Shown here piece after piece: positions 1 to 7,876 of a stretch of 64,000 nt of DNA (positions are counted from its first letter, which is position 1; each line of letters opens with the position of its first letter). The DNA comes from Sulfurovum sp. (GTDB taxonomy: Bacteria > Campylobacterota > Campylobacteria > Campylobacterales > Sulfurovaceae): assembly GCA_027082955.1 (NCBI GenBank), contig JALWTA010000001.1, positions 1 to 64,000 of the forward strand. Direction: 5' to 3'. Both the position numbers and the translations under genes were made by a program. Under the pieces are notes generated by a model. The model had not been told where the DNA came from. It did not search any database and saw nothing but the letters and a program-made list of their open reading frames with translations.

Positions 1-1231
1 TGATCACTTTTCCTGCAATGTTGTAAAGTTTGTAGCGAATCGTCTGTACGGTATGTCTCTGCCAGCTTTGTTGCATTGTTTGTCTGAATAGGATAAAAAG
101 GTTATAGGCTAGTGCACCGATCTGGAAGTATAGAGCATTTGCGATAAAGTCAGAAGTAGGCAAATAGTTCAGGTTGAATCCATTCTTGAGTGCCTTGATA
201 CGGTTCTCGCTTGTTTCTCCACGTTGTCTGTAGAGTCTGACGACTTCCTGTGCTGTCAGATCTTTATCCTCTGCATTGGTTGCAATGACGCTGTATCGTT
301 CATTGGCAAGTGCAAGCAATTCATCGTTATCAAGAAACTTTTCCATGGTTGGCAGTATCGGAGTTACTTGTCGTTTAACGACAACGATACGAAAGGCATG
401 GTCGGTATGGTTCATTGTATGAAGAAACTCTCCTACCTCTTCTTTTACATGATGATACTTTCCGTCATAACCCTCAAGTATTTCCCACTTGGTGATCTGT
501 TTGATATTCTGGAGTGTCGGTGCATCCAGATGTGCACCGATAAGATAGGTGATATCGTTTTGGTTGCAGTAGTTAAAGAGTTCAGCTTGATAGGAAGCAC
601 TGTCTGCACGGACATAGGTGAAGCTTCTGTCTTTGGGCAGTTGGGCTTGGCAGCGTTTGAGGAAAGTCAGGTTGTTATCTGCCGGTGCCATATTCCCCGG
701 TCTGAATTCACTGTGGATCATATAGCCACCGTTGATATGCCCCGTCATCGGGGTAAATCCCGGAAACTCTTTGTATGTTGTCATTGCTATGGACTTATGG
801 CTCTCTATGACCGTAGCATCCATATCCAGGGTGAGTGGTTCATCAATCGATTTCAAATAGCGTTTCAGCAAGGTACGGTTCACGCTTTCCAGAGCATAGA
901 CACCTTGCAGTCCTGTGCGTTTTAGCCACTTCCCTACAGTATCGGCTGTTGGCATACGTTTGATACCCAGTAGTGCACGAAGCCCTTGATCCGAAGCGAT
1001 GGTTCGTACATCTTCAAGGACTCTGCCTCCTGCGTGCAGCATCAGCAGCAGAGGTTGGATTATCTCAAAGGGCTGATAGGCATAATTACTTTTAGGTGCA
1101 GGAAAATGATCGTTACAAAGTTTATCAATACCGATCGCTTTGAAATATTCCGCCAACACCGCTTCACCCGCTCTTGGTGTCAGGCGCTCATCGGTACTCT
1201 CTACAGTAAAATTTAACACTCCCTGTGTCAT
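1..1231 (-). CDS. IS1380-family transposase (3' end outside window)
   Basis: DDE transposase, cut by the left window edge after about 410 codons with no stop seen in the reading frame. Translating the minus strand from the ATG at 1231 (preceded by AAGGAG) gives the three catalytic blocks of the family: an Asp in LDMDAT, an Asp in VRADSASY, and a late Glu in RGETSENRIKALK, the Y-(2)-R-(3)-E-type signature. The C-terminal part seen here (NLNYLPTSDFIANAL, then FQIGALAYNLFILFRQTM) is typical of IS1380/IS4-like enzymes. No frameshift was found, so the copy may be functional. The right end of the element probably lies at about 1356 (see that entry). It sits beside polysaccharide genes, a common site of IS insertion. 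Confidence 0.88.
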   Translation of the reverse strand, partial: MTQGVLNFTVESTDERLTPRAGEAVLAEYFKAIGIDKLCNDHFPAPKSNYAYQPFEIIQPLLLMLHAGGRVLEDVRTIASDQGLRALLGIKRMPTADTVGKWLKRTGLQGVYALESVNRTLLKRYLKSIDEPLTLDMDATVIESHKSIAMTTYKEFPGFTPMTGHINGGYMIHSEFRPGNMAPADNNLTFLKRCQAQLPKDRSFTYVRADSASYQAELFNYCNQNDITYLIGAHLDAPTLQNIKQITKWEILEGYDGKYHHVKEEVGEFLHTMNHTDHAFRIVVVKRQVTPILPTMEKFLDNDELLALANERYSVIATNAEDKDLTAQEVVRLYRQRGETSENRIKALKNGFNLNYLPTSDFIANALYFQIGALAYNLFILFRQTMQQSWQRHTVQTIRYKLYNIAGKVI

Positions 1232-1339
1232 ACTTTCACTCCTTGGGGAAAGAGTGCACCCGATGGGTGAAAGAATCAAGTGCACTTTTTTCTCTGGTTT
1301 CTTCGTATTTTACGACACTCCCGCTTATTTACATTTTTT

Positions 1340-1356
1340 CTATTTCGATTTTAGGG
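1340..1356. repeat. Probable right terminal inverted repeat of the IS1380 element
   Basis: Read on the minus strand, the bases ending at 1356 are CCCTAAAATCGAAATAG, about 110 bp upstream of the transposase start. IS1380 ends usually begin with CC. This sequence closely resembles the ends of the two miniature elements at 13356 and 60136 (CCCAAATCTCGAAATAG). The matching left end lies outside the window, so the assignment is inferred. Confidence 0.5.
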
Positions 1357-1368
1357 AGTTTTAGAAGT

Positions 1369-1397
1369 TTGACATTTAACAAGAAAACCATTATAAT
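1369..1397 (+). promoter_or_regulatory. Strong sigma-70 promoter (TTGACA-17-TATAAT)
   Basis: A consensus -35 TTGACA (1369-1374) and consensus -10 TATAAT (1392-1397) are separated by exactly 17 bp, which is rare in this group where -35 boxes are usually poor. Transcription should start near 1404, at the foot of the hairpin RNA described next. Confidence 0.8.
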
Positions 1398-1403
1398 AGC
1401 TTA

Positions 1404-1468
1404 GCGCCCATGGCAATACGCTACACCCCAGTAAAATGCAGGTGGAGCTAGCCCATGGGCTTTTTTTT
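1404..1468 (+). ncRNA. Hairpin RNA or leader ending in an intrinsic terminator
   Basis: From the predicted start the transcript folds into one long interrupted hairpin. An outer stem GCCCATGG/CCATGGGC (1406-1413 with 1453-1460) encloses an inner stem built from GCT and CACC on the left and GGTG and AGC on the right, and is followed by eight Ts (1461-1468). It could be a free RNA of about 65 nt or an attenuator ahead of the acetyltransferase and glycosyltransferase. It does not match the SRP, tmRNA or riboswitch consensus sequences I know. Confidence 0.5.
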
Positions 1469-1479
1469 GGAGTTTTTTT

Positions 1480-1539
1480 ATGAAAACATCAACATTAATC
1501 AGAGAAAAATATGTGACTGATGCACAAAGTCAAACTTAA
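1480..1539 (+). CDS. Short ORF (19 codons), possible leader peptide
   Basis: ATG at 1480 lies seven bases after GGAG (1469-1472) and opens a 19-codon frame, MKTSTLIREKYVTDAQSQT, ending in TAA at 1537-1539. The stop lies 18 bases inside the acetyltransferase gene, which itself lacks a recognisable ribosome-binding site. This arrangement suggests translational coupling. It lies just after the terminator-like hairpin, so it may be a leader peptide or a remnant of a truncated gene. I do not recognise the peptide. Confidence 0.4.
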   Translation: MKTSTLIREKYVTDAQSQT

Positions 1540-2077
1540 TCAATATAACAATGACTGGTATAAGCCTGGCAGCAGTATCAGGAAAACGCTATGGTACTTT
1601 ACCAATATTTTTTTCTTCAAAACGATGTTACCCTTTCCCTCTTCTTTCAAAACAAAACTTTTGACACTTTTTGGTGCAAAAATAGGTACAGATGTGGTTA
1701 TCAAGCCAAATGTAAATATCAAATATCCTTGGTTCCTCAAAATCGGGGATAACTGCTGGATTGGTGAAGGAGTCTGGATCGACAATCTTACTATGGTAAC
1801 AATATACTCTAATGTGATACTATCGCAGGGAGTATATCTTTTAACGGGCAGCCATAACTACAAAAAAATTTCATTCGATCTCATGCTAAAGAAGATTGTA
1901 CTCAAAGAAGGCGTCTGGATAGGGGCGAAGGCTATTGTCTGTCCCGGAGTGACATGCCAAAGCCACTCTGTACTTACTGCAGGTTCTGTTGCGACAAAAG
2001 ATCTTGAAGCCTATAGTGTATATCAAGGAAATCCGGCGGTGATGAAGCGTAAACGTATCATCCACGCTACGTGCTAA
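1520..2077 (+). CDS. WcaF-like colanic-acid/serine-type acetyltransferase
   Basis: A 185-residue left-handed beta-helix acetyltransferase of the WcaF/NodL/LacA group, expected to O-acetylate a sugar of a surface polysaccharide using acetyl-CoA in the cytoplasm. The N-terminal KVKLNQYNNDWYKPGS is the usual WcaF opening. Hexapeptide repeats follow (KIGDNCWIGEGVWIDN, GVWIGAKAIVCPGVT), and the catalytic-type His is in LTGSHNY. The frame is closed upstream by TGA at 1514, so ATG 1520 is the only good start. It has no Shine-Dalgarno and probably depends on the overlapping 19-codon ORF. A GT2 gene follows 35 bp downstream. Confidence 0.85.
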   Translation: MHKVKLNQYNNDWYKPGSSIRKTLWYFTNIFFFKTMLPFPSSFKTKLLTLFGAKIGTDVVIKPNVNIKYPWFLKIGDNCWIGEGVWIDNLTMVTIYSNVILSQGVYLLTGSHNYKKISFDLMLKKIVLKEGVWIGAKAIVCPGVTCQSHSVLTAGSVATKDLEAYSVYQGNPAVMKRKRIIHATC

Positions 2078-2112
2078 GTTTTTGTATTACGATCAATAAC
2101 AAAGAAGAACAA

Positions 2113-2859
2113 ATGAAAATATCGGTCATCACCTCAGTCTACAACAATCAAGAGACGATTGCCCAAACCATAGAGTCCGTCCTGTCGCAAACCTATGACA
2201 ATATAGAATATATTGTGGTAGACGGCGCTTCCGATGATGGTACGATAGATATCATAAAGCAGTATGAAGACAAGATTACTGTTTTTGTCTCTGAACCAGA
2301 CAAAGGCATTTACGATGGTCTCAACAAAGGCATAGCACTTGCTACCGGTGATATTGTCGGATTTCTGCATTCGGACGATCTGTTTGAAGATGCACATGTG
2401 GTTGGGAAAATAGCCGACACTTTTAAAAAGAGGCATGTGGAGAGTATTTACGGGGATCTGATCTATGTCAGACAAGAGGACACACGCCATATCGTCCGTT
2501 TTTGGAAAAGCGGTATCTTTACACCCGTCAAACTAAAGTGGGGCTGGATGCCGCCGCACCCGACTTTTTATGTAAAACGTGAAGTGTATGAAAAGTATGG
2601 CACATTCGATACAGATTTCAAGATATCTGCCGACTATGACACTATCCTGCGTTTTTTGGGAAGAGAAAAAATATCAACCCACTACATCCCGAAAGTACTT
2701 GTAAAAATGCGTATTGGCGGGGCAAGCAACAAAAGTCTTGGCAATATCGTGCAAAAAAGCAGAGAAGATCTCAAGGCTATGAAAAAAAACGGCATAGGAC
2801 ACATTGGCAGTCTATTTATAAAAAACCTATCTAAAATACCTCAATTCTTCTCCACCTAA
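2113..2859 (+). CDS. Family 2 glycosyltransferase (WcaA-like)
   Basis: A 248-residue GT-A fold transferase that moves a sugar from an NDP donor during polysaccharide assembly. The N-terminus MKISVITSVYNNQETIAQTI is the classical GT2 start. The nucleotide and metal motifs VDGASDDGT, SEPDKGIYDGLNKG and FLHSDD follow in order, and ISADYDTILR is the acceptor-side motif. No membrane segment is evident, so it is probably a peripheral cytoplasmic enzyme. I chose ATG 2113 (with AAAGAAGA upstream) over an in-frame start 42 bases earlier because it begins exactly at the conserved first strand. It forms a pair with the upstream acetyltransferase. Confidence 0.88.
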   Translation: MKISVITSVYNNQETIAQTIESVLSQTYDNIEYIVVDGASDDGTIDIIKQYEDKITVFVSEPDKGIYDGLNKGIALATGDIVGFLHSDDLFEDAHVVGKIADTFKKRHVESIYGDLIYVRQEDTRHIVRFWKSGIFTPVKLKWGWMPPHPTFYVKREVYEKYGTFDTDFKISADYDTILRFLGREKISTHYIPKVLVKMRIGGASNKSLGNIVQKSREDLKAMKKNGIGHIGSLFIKNLSKIPQFFST

Positions 2860-2898
2860 AACAACACACTGTCAACCCCATATACACTATTGTACGGC

Positions 2899-4086
2899 TT
2901 AAATATATTTTTTGTGCCACCGCTTCACAATATTGTAAGGACGCACCACATAATATAGAAATGTCAGTTTCTCTGGGAAGTTAAAAGCTTCAAAATCTAG
3001 CGGCGTTGGCTTGAACAGTGCACTTAAAAAACGCCACCTATTCTTATAACCGTCTAAAAGTTTAAGCTGTAAAAGAGAGATTTTCTTGGTACGTACCTTT
3101 GTTTGTAGAGGATCCCCAAAATGCATCTTGAAATAAGTATTGATCTGCTGTGATAGTTTAACCATATATTTTTCCCTAAGTTTCTCGAGGATCACATTCG
3201 GCAATGGTGTACCTAACAGTGTATTGCTAAGTGCCAGCGTTCCCAAGACCATTTTACTGCTTCGGGTACGTTCTGCAAGTACAAGCACCTTATCCCAGTC
3301 AGGTTGGGACATTGCAGTAATTCGGTCGATATCGACGACCCACTCAAGCCGTTCCCACCGATGCTTGGCACCATGTACACATAAATAGACAAGCATCTCC
3401 TCAGGTGCAGGACTCCTCAAAGATGTATGATGTATCATCACCTCTTGGGCATTCTTAAAAAGTGCCATATTCCCCAATTCTGCCATAAATTCTCCGCTGA
3501 AAAGCTGCCAATGTACCTCCAAAGATATTAACTTCTCCCTATGCATAAGCACAACATCGTGTGCAATACTTCGATAGGAAGCGAACTGGGCACTGTTGAG
3601 CGTGTAAACCTCATCGTACCCTTCCTGTTTCAAAAGAGAAATCGTGCGTTCAAGCATCTCTGGAGCAATGAGAATATCAAGGTCAATATAGCTTCTAAGT
3701 GTAATGTCACCATATGCAGACTGTGCCAGTGCCGGCCCTTTAAGTGCCAACATATCAATGCCTTCTTTGGTGAGTAGACTTTCAATGCGGAGCAACTCAG
3801 ATGTCATCTGCATATTTCTTCGTACAATCATCCCATAAACTGATTTAGCTTTGGAAAAAAACTGCTGTATAGTTGTATTATCAGGTAGTTTGTTCTCATG
3901 TACCATTCGATGCAGTGTCGTATAGACAAGCGGCAATACTCCATGATAAAATGCCAAAGAGAGGGTTGATTCTCTATCAAAAGAGGCATCCTCAACATAG
4001 CGGACGATCTCATCTTCAGCGCTTTGCCCCAAAGTATATTGGCAGCATGCTGTCAAAAAACGCATCTGTGCACTATTGCCATACAT
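2899..4086 (-). CDS. PF14907-type nucleotidyltransferase family protein
   Basis: A protein of about 395 residues of the uncharacterised nucleotidyltransferase family PF14907 (NTP_transf_5). The diagnostic block is LALKGPALAQSAYGDITLRS followed by YIDLDILI, giving the paired acidic residues of the polymerase-beta-like active site, and later VHWQL. Relatives often lie in polysaccharide or peptide-secretion clusters, and here it converges on the GT2 gene, so a role in polymer modification is possible but inferred. Two in-frame starts occur. ATG 4086 is nine bases from GGAGG and is preferred to ATG 4092, which is only three bases away. Confidence 0.75.
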   Translation of the reverse strand: MYGNSAQMRFLTACCQYTLGQSAEDEIVRYVEDASFDRESTLSLAFYHGVLPLVYTTLHRMVHENKLPDNTTIQQFFSKAKSVYGMIVRRNMQMTSELLRIESLLTKEGIDMLALKGPALAQSAYGDITLRSYIDLDILIAPEMLERTISLLKQEGYDEVYTLNSAQFASYRSIAHDVVLMHREKLISLEVHWQLFSGEFMAELGNMALFKNAQEVMIHHTSLRSPAPEEMLVYLCVHGAKHRWERLEWVVDIDRITAMSQPDWDKVLVLAERTRSSKMVLGTLALSNTLLGTPLPNVILEKLREKYMVKLSQQINTYFKMHFGDPLQTKVRTKKISLLQLKLLDGYKNRWRFLSALFKPTPLDFEAFNFPEKLTFLYYVVRPYNIVKRWHKKYI

Positions 4087-7063: not shown

Positions 7064-7441
7064 ATGGCATCTTCAGTCACAACAGCTATGACATCACAAT
7101 ACGGTACACCGGTAACACCGCTACGGTTAAAAACACGTTCTGAAACACAACGCAATTACATTCATCAGGAAGTGGAACTGTATAAGACACCGTTTTTACT
7201 TTTTCCTGAAGGCAAGGAGATGCTTTTTTTAGGCATCTATTTTATCACGGTTCCCTATATTGTCGGCATTCTTTTCCTTTTTGCCTATATTGCACAGTTT
7301 GATGTCTCTGTCTTTCGTGCAGTAGGAAACAGCTCTTCGCTCCTCTTGATTTGGACAGTTGGGTATGAGATCATCGCTGCATTTGTGCTCTTGTTGATCA
7401 TCAAAAACGCTATTGTGTTTACCATAAAAAACAGACAGTAA
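7064..7441 (+). CDS. Small two-TM membrane protein, first tandem copy
   Basis: A 125-residue protein of unknown function with a polar N-terminal third and two hydrophobic helices (around residues 45-75 and 90-118). The core KTPFLLFPEGKEMLFLGIY recurs almost unchanged in the next gene, showing tandem duplication. The start is preceded by GGGGATAAGGGAA. The C-terminal KNAIVFTIKNRQ is basic and probably cytoplasmic. The two genes are 15 bp apart and presumably cotranscribed. I know no characterised family; products of this kind could pair as a heteromer in the inner membrane, which is inference. Confidence 0.65.
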   Translation: MASSVTTAMTSQYGTPVTPLRLKTRSETQRNYIHQEVELYKTPFLLFPEGKEMLFLGIYFITVPYIVGILFLFAYIAQFDVSVFRAVGNSSSLLLIWTVGYEIIAAFVLLLIIKNAIVFTIKNRQ

Positions 7442-7456
7442 CAGGATACGATACCA

Positions 7457-7876
7457 ATGGATGCAATTGAAGAAACCGCAAAACAGATTGACTATGGCAA
7501 ACCGATAGCCAAACAGAAAAAGAAAAAACGCACTGTACGAAACAGTACAAGTTATACGCAGCAAGAGGTAGATTTTCAAAAGACACCGTTTCTGTTTTTC
7601 CCTCCTGGCAAAGAGATGCTCTTTTTGGGCATCTACTTCGTTACACTCCCCTATATCACTGGTTTGATATTTCTCTTTTTCTTTGTCTCTGACGGAAAAG
7701 CATCAGTATTTGGCAGTATTGGAAAGGATGCTTCTTTTTTTCTTGTCTGGACCATTGGCTACGAAATTCTTGCAGTATTCATCCTGCTCATGATCGTGAA
7801 AGGGGCGATCATGTTCAGCATCCGGAACAGTCAGAAACGCCGCAGTGGGCGGCCCAAAAAGTTTCACCGTCCCTAA
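7457..7876 (+). CDS. Small two-TM membrane protein, second tandem copy
   Basis: A 139-residue paralogue of the preceding gene. It shares QQEVDFQKTPFLFFPPGKEM, a first helix (LFLGIYFVTLPYITGLIFL), a central soluble loop, a second helix around WTIGYEILAVFILL and a basic tail. It differs by a lysine-rich N-terminal segment (KQKKKKRT) and a C-terminal extension rich in Arg and Lys (RRSGRPKKFHRP). It converges on uvrA with a 66-bp gap. The function is unknown; the strict conservation of KTPFL-FP-GKEMLFLGIYF between copies marks the functionally constrained part. Confidence 0.65.
   Translation: MDAIEETAKQIDYGKPIAKQKKKKRTVRNSTSYTQQEVDFQKTPFLFFPPGKEMLFLGIYFVTLPYITGLIFLFFFVSDGKASVFGSIGKDASFFLVWTIGYEILAVFILLMIVKGAIMFSIRNSQKRRSGRPKKFHRP

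Follow-up and report, generated by a model that had tools for sequence, protein, structure and literature searches.

A putative relic of a mobile promoter–hairpin RNA–NYN gene cassette in front of polysaccharide genes of Sulfurovum

The DNA analyzed here is a stretch of 64,000 nucleotides from Sulfurovum sp. (the window; the genome to which it belongs is designated G000). At positions 1369-1539 a promoter, a hairpin and a small ORF lie together just upstream of polysaccharide genes. An earlier note had proposed that they have the parts of an attenuation or coupling system. We wanted to know whether this segment indeed belongs to the polysaccharide genes or has another origin. The features of the region, named according to the analyses described below, are as follows.

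1-1360, minus strand: IS element with a DDE transposase (ORF 2-1285, open at the window edge; DDE_Tnp_1_4, E 8.1e-44)
1369-1397, plus strand: predicted sigma-70 promoter of the RNA-NYN cassette (TTGACA-17-TATAAT, 12/12 consensus, spacer 17)
1406-1460, plus strand: putative decayed NYN-associated hairpin RNA (55 nt, with the 8-bp outer stem GCCCAUGG/CCAUGGGC intact)
1461-1468, plus strand: T-run, predicted from the sequence to be the terminator tail of the RNA (eight T)
1469-1472, plus strand: GGAG, predicted from the sequence to be the ribosome-binding site of the former NYN gene (retained in loci L010 and L011)
1480-1539, plus strand: 19-codon ORF, putative remnant of the 5' end of an NYN-domain gene (MKTAILVD... 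in relatives; fusion ORF in L010; full gene in L049)
1520-2077, plus strand: hexapeptide acyltransferase, the first polysaccharide gene past the relic (PF00132; close homologues in genomes G002, G009 and G077)
2113-2859, plus strand: family 2 glycosyltransferase, the next gene of the polysaccharide locus (PF00535, E 1.5e-28)

The observation made in the earlier note is confirmed, and its interpretation is partly supported. The promoter, described there as perfect, is the only perfect one among the 16 promoter-like sites that were found in a scan of window positions 1-4000. The hairpin is followed by a T-run, as had been reported, and is 55 nt long, or 63 nt with the T-run, rather than 65 nt. 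The 19-codon ORF is indeed well started, with GGAG at 1469-1472 and ATG at 1480; its stop codon is at 1537-1539 and its product is MKTSTLIREKYVTDAQSQT. The ATG of the hexapeptide acyltransferase ORF (the acetyltransferase of the earlier note) is located at 1520, inside the 19-codon ORF, and inspection by eye revealed no clear Shine-Dalgarno sequence in front of it, in line with the previous remark that it has no ribosome-binding site. The minimum free energy of the hairpin is -24.9 kcal/mol versus -19.45 +/- 2.89 in shuffled sequences, and because 6 of the 200 shuffles were equally good, the hairpin is thermodynamically just mildly unusual. It is therefore because relatives carry it, and not because of its folding energy, that we take the hairpin to be more than a chance structure. 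The hairpin is missing from the list produced by a terminator scan whose loop limit was 8 nt.

A search of 60 genomes, G000 included, showed that the segment is present in two further ones, G009 (locus L010) and G002 (locus L011), at the same locus, i.e., between a glycosyltransferase gene and the acyltransferase gene. When the G009 version was used to search 78 genomes of the genus, two additional short matches of ~30 nt were obtained, one in G019 and one elsewhere in G009. The promoter hexamers and their spacing (12/12) are identical in the window, G009 and G002, and no IS is present in the examined stretches of G009 and G002, which contradicts the suggestion that the IS had brought the promoter. 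The IS element landed beside the relic and is no part of it. Its end (window 1230-1360) is also found at seven further contig ends in G000, and it is therefore a multicopy element that breaks the assembly. The small ORF differs in length at this locus: it has 19 codons in the window, 10 in G002 and 51 in G009 when counted from the ATG that matches that of the window (66 from an ATG inside the hairpin). In G077, the glycosyltransferase-acyltransferase pair lacks the insert, and the first reading frame runs on uninterrupted until the second gene begins. Because the ORF lengths vary and the G077 site is empty, we regard the ORF as a shrinking stub, and the cassette as either inserted or, in G077, cleanly lost.

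Which gene the stub derives from became clear when the 51-codon ORF was used as query against a contig collection covering 84,980 species, which resulted in 69 loci. One of them, L049, contains a complete gene that encodes a 221-residue NYN-domain protein (PF01936, 38.6 bits versus a Pfam cut-off of 24.2) and is located behind the same hairpin. Comparison with this gene showed that the ORF of G009 consists of MKTAILVDGDFYLRR fused to EGINFVLDAMNHPIREDLQEHIDWLHTTLPKRQKNK, i.e., the start of the NYN protein joined to its end by an internal deletion. In the alignment, one further deletion is common to the window and G002. The earlier note had suspected that the IS truncated a previous gene; an earlier gene, the NYN gene, was indeed cut down, by internal deletions and not by the IS. 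Locus L048, with the same neighbours as L049, carries a second, different internal deletion. The comparison shows segment 1369-1539, at the level of sequence, to be what is left of a promoter-hairpin-NYN gene cassette that is present at this locus in three genomes of the genus and missing in a fourth.

For five proteins of this family, Pfam gives NYN (PF01936) alone. Twenty-seven columns are invariant in 55 NYN proteins, including D8, D148, D154, D175 and D193. The fold model has a pLDDT of 93.5, and its best structural matches are the NYN domains of MARF1 (Z 16.3 and 16.2; rmsd 2.7 over 143 aligned residues for the best superposition). The MARF1 NYN domain is an RNase. The profile, the modelled fold and the acidic residues all assign the predicted protein to the NYN (PIN-like) nucleases. 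A sequence search of the PDB did not result in an NYN relative, the single match below E 0.001 that Foldseek alone produced was 2qip, and the PADLOC NYN model matched weakly (23.9 bits). At 11 of the 69 chromosomal loci, the hairpin is kept and the NYN gene is broken or reduced to a stub (L047, L048, L052, L087, L092, L096, L104, L107, L109, L113 and L115). This fits the loss of a toxin, if it is the protein that carries the cost, with frameshift errors in draft assemblies as another possible source of some of these cases. The leader of the conserved NYN gene that the genus itself carries in 55 of 61 genomes was considered as a candidate and rejected; that gene belongs to a different subfamily.

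According to the labels of the records, the same architecture is present upstream of NYN genes in Campylobacterota, Bacillota, Spirochaetota, Pseudomonadota, Synergistaceae, Desulfovibrionaceae and Alloscardovia. Forty-nine chromosomal leaders could be aligned (alignment A2) as a hairpin with helices P1 (8 bp), P2 (2 bp) and P3 (4 bp) and conserved AGUA and GAA strands, which we take to resemble a bulged-G motif. A2 contains 49 of 56 distinct hairpins; L048, L071, L076, L095, L100, L104 and L111 were excluded as near-duplicates or outliers. Excluded before that were L050, L084, L085, L088, L102 and L106 (another hairpin or none; none of them matched the model described below), L114 (no upstream DNA), L011, the window itself and L116-L135 (Campylobacteria NYN genes with other leaders). 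All 14 of the 14 base pairs show two-sided changes, 91% of the cells are paired, and the covariation score is 0.533 versus 0.239 for shuffled alignments, dropping to 0.06-0.22 when the partners are slid by 1-3 columns. Part of the evidence for P1 pairing in A2 is circular, since a stem was what guided the extraction of the leaders; this does not apply to P2 and P3. The internal loop is strongly conserved in A2, beyond the stem alone, and the 49 leaders contain no guide-like variable segment. Several Lachnospiraceae leaders (L055, L057, L068, L071 and similar ones) have an extra stem-loop, TGTAAC-n-GTTACA plus GTTAATAA, between the promoter and the motif.

From these 49 leaders we built a model, R1. 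At the locus of the window, R1 scores 43.8 bits in G009, 18.6 bits in the window and 12.9 bits in G002, the window score having been obtained with filters off; with default filters, a search of 185 kb at E<=5 missed the window copy. Decay took a different course in the two low-scoring copies: the outer stem was lost in G002, and in G000 the loop was lost, the alignment with relatives having AAUA / CUAG in place of the conserved AGUA...GAA internal loop. Nor does G000 contain anything that matches the NYN protein of L049. The window copy, with its stem kept and its loop and gene lost, is, as judged from these alignments, probably a descendant of the NYN-leader RNA and not a working member of it. 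As a control, 30 loci (of 58 places) of another NYN subfamily gave one weak R1 match (E 0.2). The leaders of plasmid and chromosomal Campylobacteria NYN genes (L177 and L132, Campylobacter-type) are divergent, with GGCAGUAACC...GGCAAACCC, and are missed by R1; they are possibly a second subtype of the RNA.

We then applied R1 to viral contigs that had been picked by the NYN protein alone, using the best 80 of 165 viral relatives. R1 matched upstream of 61 of these 80 NYN genes, 17-71 nt before the start codon (E up to 1, 412 kb), or in 60 of 73 when distinct leaders among the best 80 were counted, and the single other match in the 412 kb is a second copy in L211. In a first viral set, sharing nine contigs with the set of 80, R1 had matched 14 out of 14, with 13 of the 14 below E 0.01. 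Exactly one copy precedes the gene in all 14 and in each of the 61. The remaining 19 of the best 80 leaders were missed, and other hairpins were seen there by eye. Among the 60 distinct viral leaders, 57 have a T-run, 51 have a Shine-Dalgarno-like sequence, and 48 have a promoter of at least 9/12, versus 12.9 expected from shuffles. For 52 viral matches, in an alignment that was fitted to R1, the covariation score is 0.722 versus 0.288 when shuffled; 42 of 500 shuffles of the viral set also reach 14 two-sided pairs. The shortest NYN ORF among the best 80 of the 165 viral relatives still has at least 190 codons.

In 26 genomes chosen by their NYN loci, R1 gave 21 matches in total, distributed over 19 genomes and with exactly one match in 17 of them. 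Of these 21 matches, 20 precede an NYN sequence, either whole, broken or reduced to a 16-residue stub; the second copy in G497 precedes a second NYN gene and that in G480 precedes none. A survey of 299 genomes of the Blautia phylum, not chosen by NYN and screened with strict filters, resulted in four matching genomes: the centre genome, with NYN, and L168, L167 and L169, in which the motif lies before an NYN gene, before an SLFN_AlbA_2 gene and before no gene directly, respectively. Viral contigs were also sought by motif pattern; one of the three found has the motif before an NYN gene and two do not, and two more viral scans of this type gave no match. These surveys show, therefore, that NYN genes mostly carry the RNA, yet that an NYN gene does not follow every copy of the RNA: copies without an NYN gene are those of L165, L169, L171 and L172, and the second copy in L211.

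Some individual copies deserve description. At L167 (664-1550), the motif, a T-run and a ribosome site precede the SLFN_AlbA_2 (Schlafen-type) gene, and the adjoining ORF is LexA/CI-repressor-like by eye. The second copy in L211 (3445-3494) is strong (53.6 bits) and is located directly 5' of an integrase-like gene, after an NYN gene that has a leader itself. L172 (8561-8610) holds a close counterpart of this copy, followed by HicA/HicB-like ORFs and no more than a trace of an NYN start. The top-scoring copy seen (70.6 bits), at L171 (9256-9305), has no gene directly behind it and an integrase-like ORF ~500 nt further on.

Searches with Rfam models connected this family to a known RNA. TEG147 (RF03535) matched the L055 leader with 34.3 bits (E 1.1e-5) under permissive settings, below the RF03535 cut-off of 56.1 bits. 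A search of 398 Bacilli genomes with RF03535 resulted in five matches, distributed over four genomes, and three of these matches were above the cut-off: L195 before an intact NYN gene, L193 before a broken one and L194 before a remnant. The latter was seen as DNA alone, being 74% like L193 over 276 nt, RNA included. The two matches below the cut-off have no NYN gene. TEG147 has the same fold and loop as the NYN-leader RNA and, on this likeness and its adjacency to NYN in Bacilli loci L193-L195, is assigned to the NYN-associated RNA family. The Rfam model is narrow: none of ten loci searched with it, eight of them with leaders in A2, gave a gathering match, and the only known RNAs with gathering scores in a search of ten loci for riboswitches and sRNAs were tRNAs. 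RF03535 matched none of 101 Campylobacteria genomes, in a search in which no control genome matched either, and TEG147 did not match in the window up to E 5. Searching the window for Rfam families gave two meaningless matches, and nothing was found near the hairpin in L010, L011 and L044. In Staphylococcus aureus HG003, Teg147 (386294-386353, 60 nt) has been classed as a bona fide sRNA (PMC5826253), and it has been located on a genomic island (PMC3053349); the family is listed in the Rfam 14 paper (PMC7779021). The passages on it in these three papers make no link with an NYN gene.

The unit is widespread in prophages and plasmids, often beside a phage integrase or repressor gene. A tblastn search with the L049 protein resulted in 166 plasmid records (136 from Campylobacter; 128 conjugative) and 15 phage records. 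Of 72 ORFs of at least 70 residues that are the nearest ones behind viral NYN genes, 25 match tyrosine integrase and 7 match resolvase; on the upstream side, the nearest ORF matches HTH_3 in 14 of 77 cases, S24 in 6 and M78 in 6 (counted separately from the integrases; these neighbour counts come with no control set). In the lambdoid phage ev099, the NYN gene directly follows a LexA-family repressor gene. The ev099 stretch was matched in 274 of 5,426 E. coli genomes, in 73 of them over at least 80% of its length, and among the matches listed, 6 of 10 end at query positions 443-450, inside the gene.

Based on the order of the parts, their conservation, the nuclease fold and the mobility of the unit, we infer that the RNA binds and neutralizes the nuclease. 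Our main reading, to which we assign a probability of about 0.6, is that segment 1369-1539 is the relic of a cassette formed by a promoter, a hairpin RNA with its terminator, a ribosome site and an NYN gene, in which the RNA held the nuclease inactive. In the intact module, the promoter would yield mostly a ~60-nt RNA ending at the T-run, plus some read-through mRNA; the RNA would fold as a three-helix hairpin with the conserved internal loop, bind the NYN nuclease encoded downstream and keep it inactive. On prophages and plasmids the module could serve as an addiction or phage-exclusion unit: if transcription were disturbed, the short RNA would run out and the nuclease would cut RNA. At the locus studied here, the NYN gene was first gutted by the internal deletion (G009, with the RNA still intact) and then cut further (G002 and G000), and the RNA decayed separately in the latter two genomes. 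At present, probably only the promoter of the window is still functional; it may now drive the polysaccharide genes, feeding the acetyltransferase gene through a leaky terminator, and read-through or coupling onto this gene is possible.

The nearest precedent is AbiF/RCd22 of a Clostridioides difficile prophage, described in the cited passages of PMC12373285 as a promoter, a short ncRNA with a terminator and a toxin gene, the RNA working in cis and in trans. Both systems have a promoter, a terminated short RNA, a protein gene and a prophage location; AbiF is an Abi_2 protein (Cas13-related) and RCd22 has two motifs, whereas the NYN module has an NYN protein and one motif. Type III toxin-antitoxin systems, as outlined in PMC5086642, express an antitoxin RNA, a terminator and an endoribonuclease gene from one promoter. 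The order in ToxIN, AbiQ, CptIN and TenpIN, an RNA gene with a promoter, a Rho-independent terminator and then the protein gene, is also that of the NYN module, judging from its DNA. However, type III antitoxins are tandem repeats whereas the NYN leader has one motif copy (the second copy in L211 lies after the gene), and type III toxins are of the ToxN/AbiQ, CptN or TenpN families whereas the protein here is NYN (PF01936) only. Type III antitoxin RNAs form a pseudoknot that binds and neutralizes the toxin; the helices modelled in the NYN leader are the nested P1-P3. By analogy with ToxI or the AbiF RNA, neutralization of the nuclease is the most likely function of the RNA.

The main rival is a purely cis-acting leader, in which the hairpin is a regulated terminator that the NYN protein binds or cuts, or that senses a ligand, so that the nuclease controls its own synthesis and the RNA has no job in trans. 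Such a leader would agree with the position of the motif immediately upstream of the gene and the T-run present in 57 of the 60 distinct viral leaders, with its location mostly beside NYN in loci chosen by NYN, and with the Rfam type of TEG147, Cis-reg, but the list in PMC5826253 has TEG147 as a free-standing sRNA under a definition, in the passage concerned, that asks for an own promoter and terminator and excludes premature-termination transcripts. The five copies without NYN and the L167 copy before an SLFN_AlbA_2 gene also argue against it, unless they reflect plain decay, and on balance we consider a solely cis-acting role rather unlikely. The RNA could instead be a cofactor or sensor that, once loaded on the NYN protein, activates it or directs its action, e.g., as a decoy that is cut by phage functions. 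Conservation of the internal loop, and not of the stem alone, and the location beside prophage lysogeny genes would suit such a role, but A2 lacks a guide-like segment, and the order of promoter and terminator fits an excess of RNA, as expected of an inhibitor; we consider the cofactor or sensor quite improbable.

A device that evolved to control the polysaccharide genes by attenuation or translational coupling is very improbable, and this reading of the locus is largely refuted. The parts named in the earlier note, i.e., promoter, terminator hairpin and overlapping ORF, are indeed located in front of the acetyltransferase gene and should make a short terminated RNA, but an ORF of 19, 51 or 10 codons is no conserved leader peptide, and the same hairpin is found before NYN genes in other surroundings. 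The comparison of leaders of homologous polysaccharide loci, which had been suggested as a check, gave a divided outcome, with the segment carried by G009 and G002, and G077 having the pair of genes without it; the system belongs to the NYN gene rather than to the polysaccharide genes.

Returning to neutralization of the nuclease by the RNA, we tentatively extend it, at somewhat less than even odds, to a large unnamed class of mobile modules whose RNA, a single hairpin bearing a conserved internal loop, neutralizes an NYN nuclease (once it is found before a Schlafen-type AlbA_2 gene) for prophage or plasmid addiction or for phage exclusion. Orphan phage RNAs, such as the one before the integrase gene in L211, may then be stolen antitoxins directed against a resident nuclease; such copies are of interest because capture of antitoxin RNA by phages is known for ToxIN (reported in passages of PMC3475682 and PMC5086642). 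What looked like an odd leader now appears as the remains of a mobile element whose history can be read, and one RNA-protein module connects TEG147, an sRNA family of S. aureus, with many NYN genes of prophages and plasmids. Should the RNA indeed neutralize the nuclease, the module would be type III-like and compact, its toxin having an unrelated fold and its antitoxin a single motif copy.

Literature searches, assessed by titles and abstract openings, revealed no bacterial leader RNA for the NYN domain combined with riboswitch, and no RNA-NYN pairing for the NYN domain combined with toxin-antitoxin. Searches for NYN with type III toxin-antitoxin, NYN with RNA motifs and Sulfurovum with the NYN domain found none, NYN did not occur among the matches listed for phage defense, prophage and NYN domain, and the word NYN is absent from the paper on the prophage sRNA svsR. 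A CRISPR-associated NYN RNase of Bacteroides fragilis acts on small RNA, according to the abstract of PMC11346440; it is part of a type III CRISPR system, in which its presumed role is crRNA trimming, and the abstract describes no leader RNA. Elsewhere in the window, two adjacent ORFs, 7064-7441 and 7457-7876, encode products of 125 and 139 residues with a common membrane-type segment (KTPFL.FP.GKEMLFLGIYF.T.PYI.G), and are apparently a tandem duplication.
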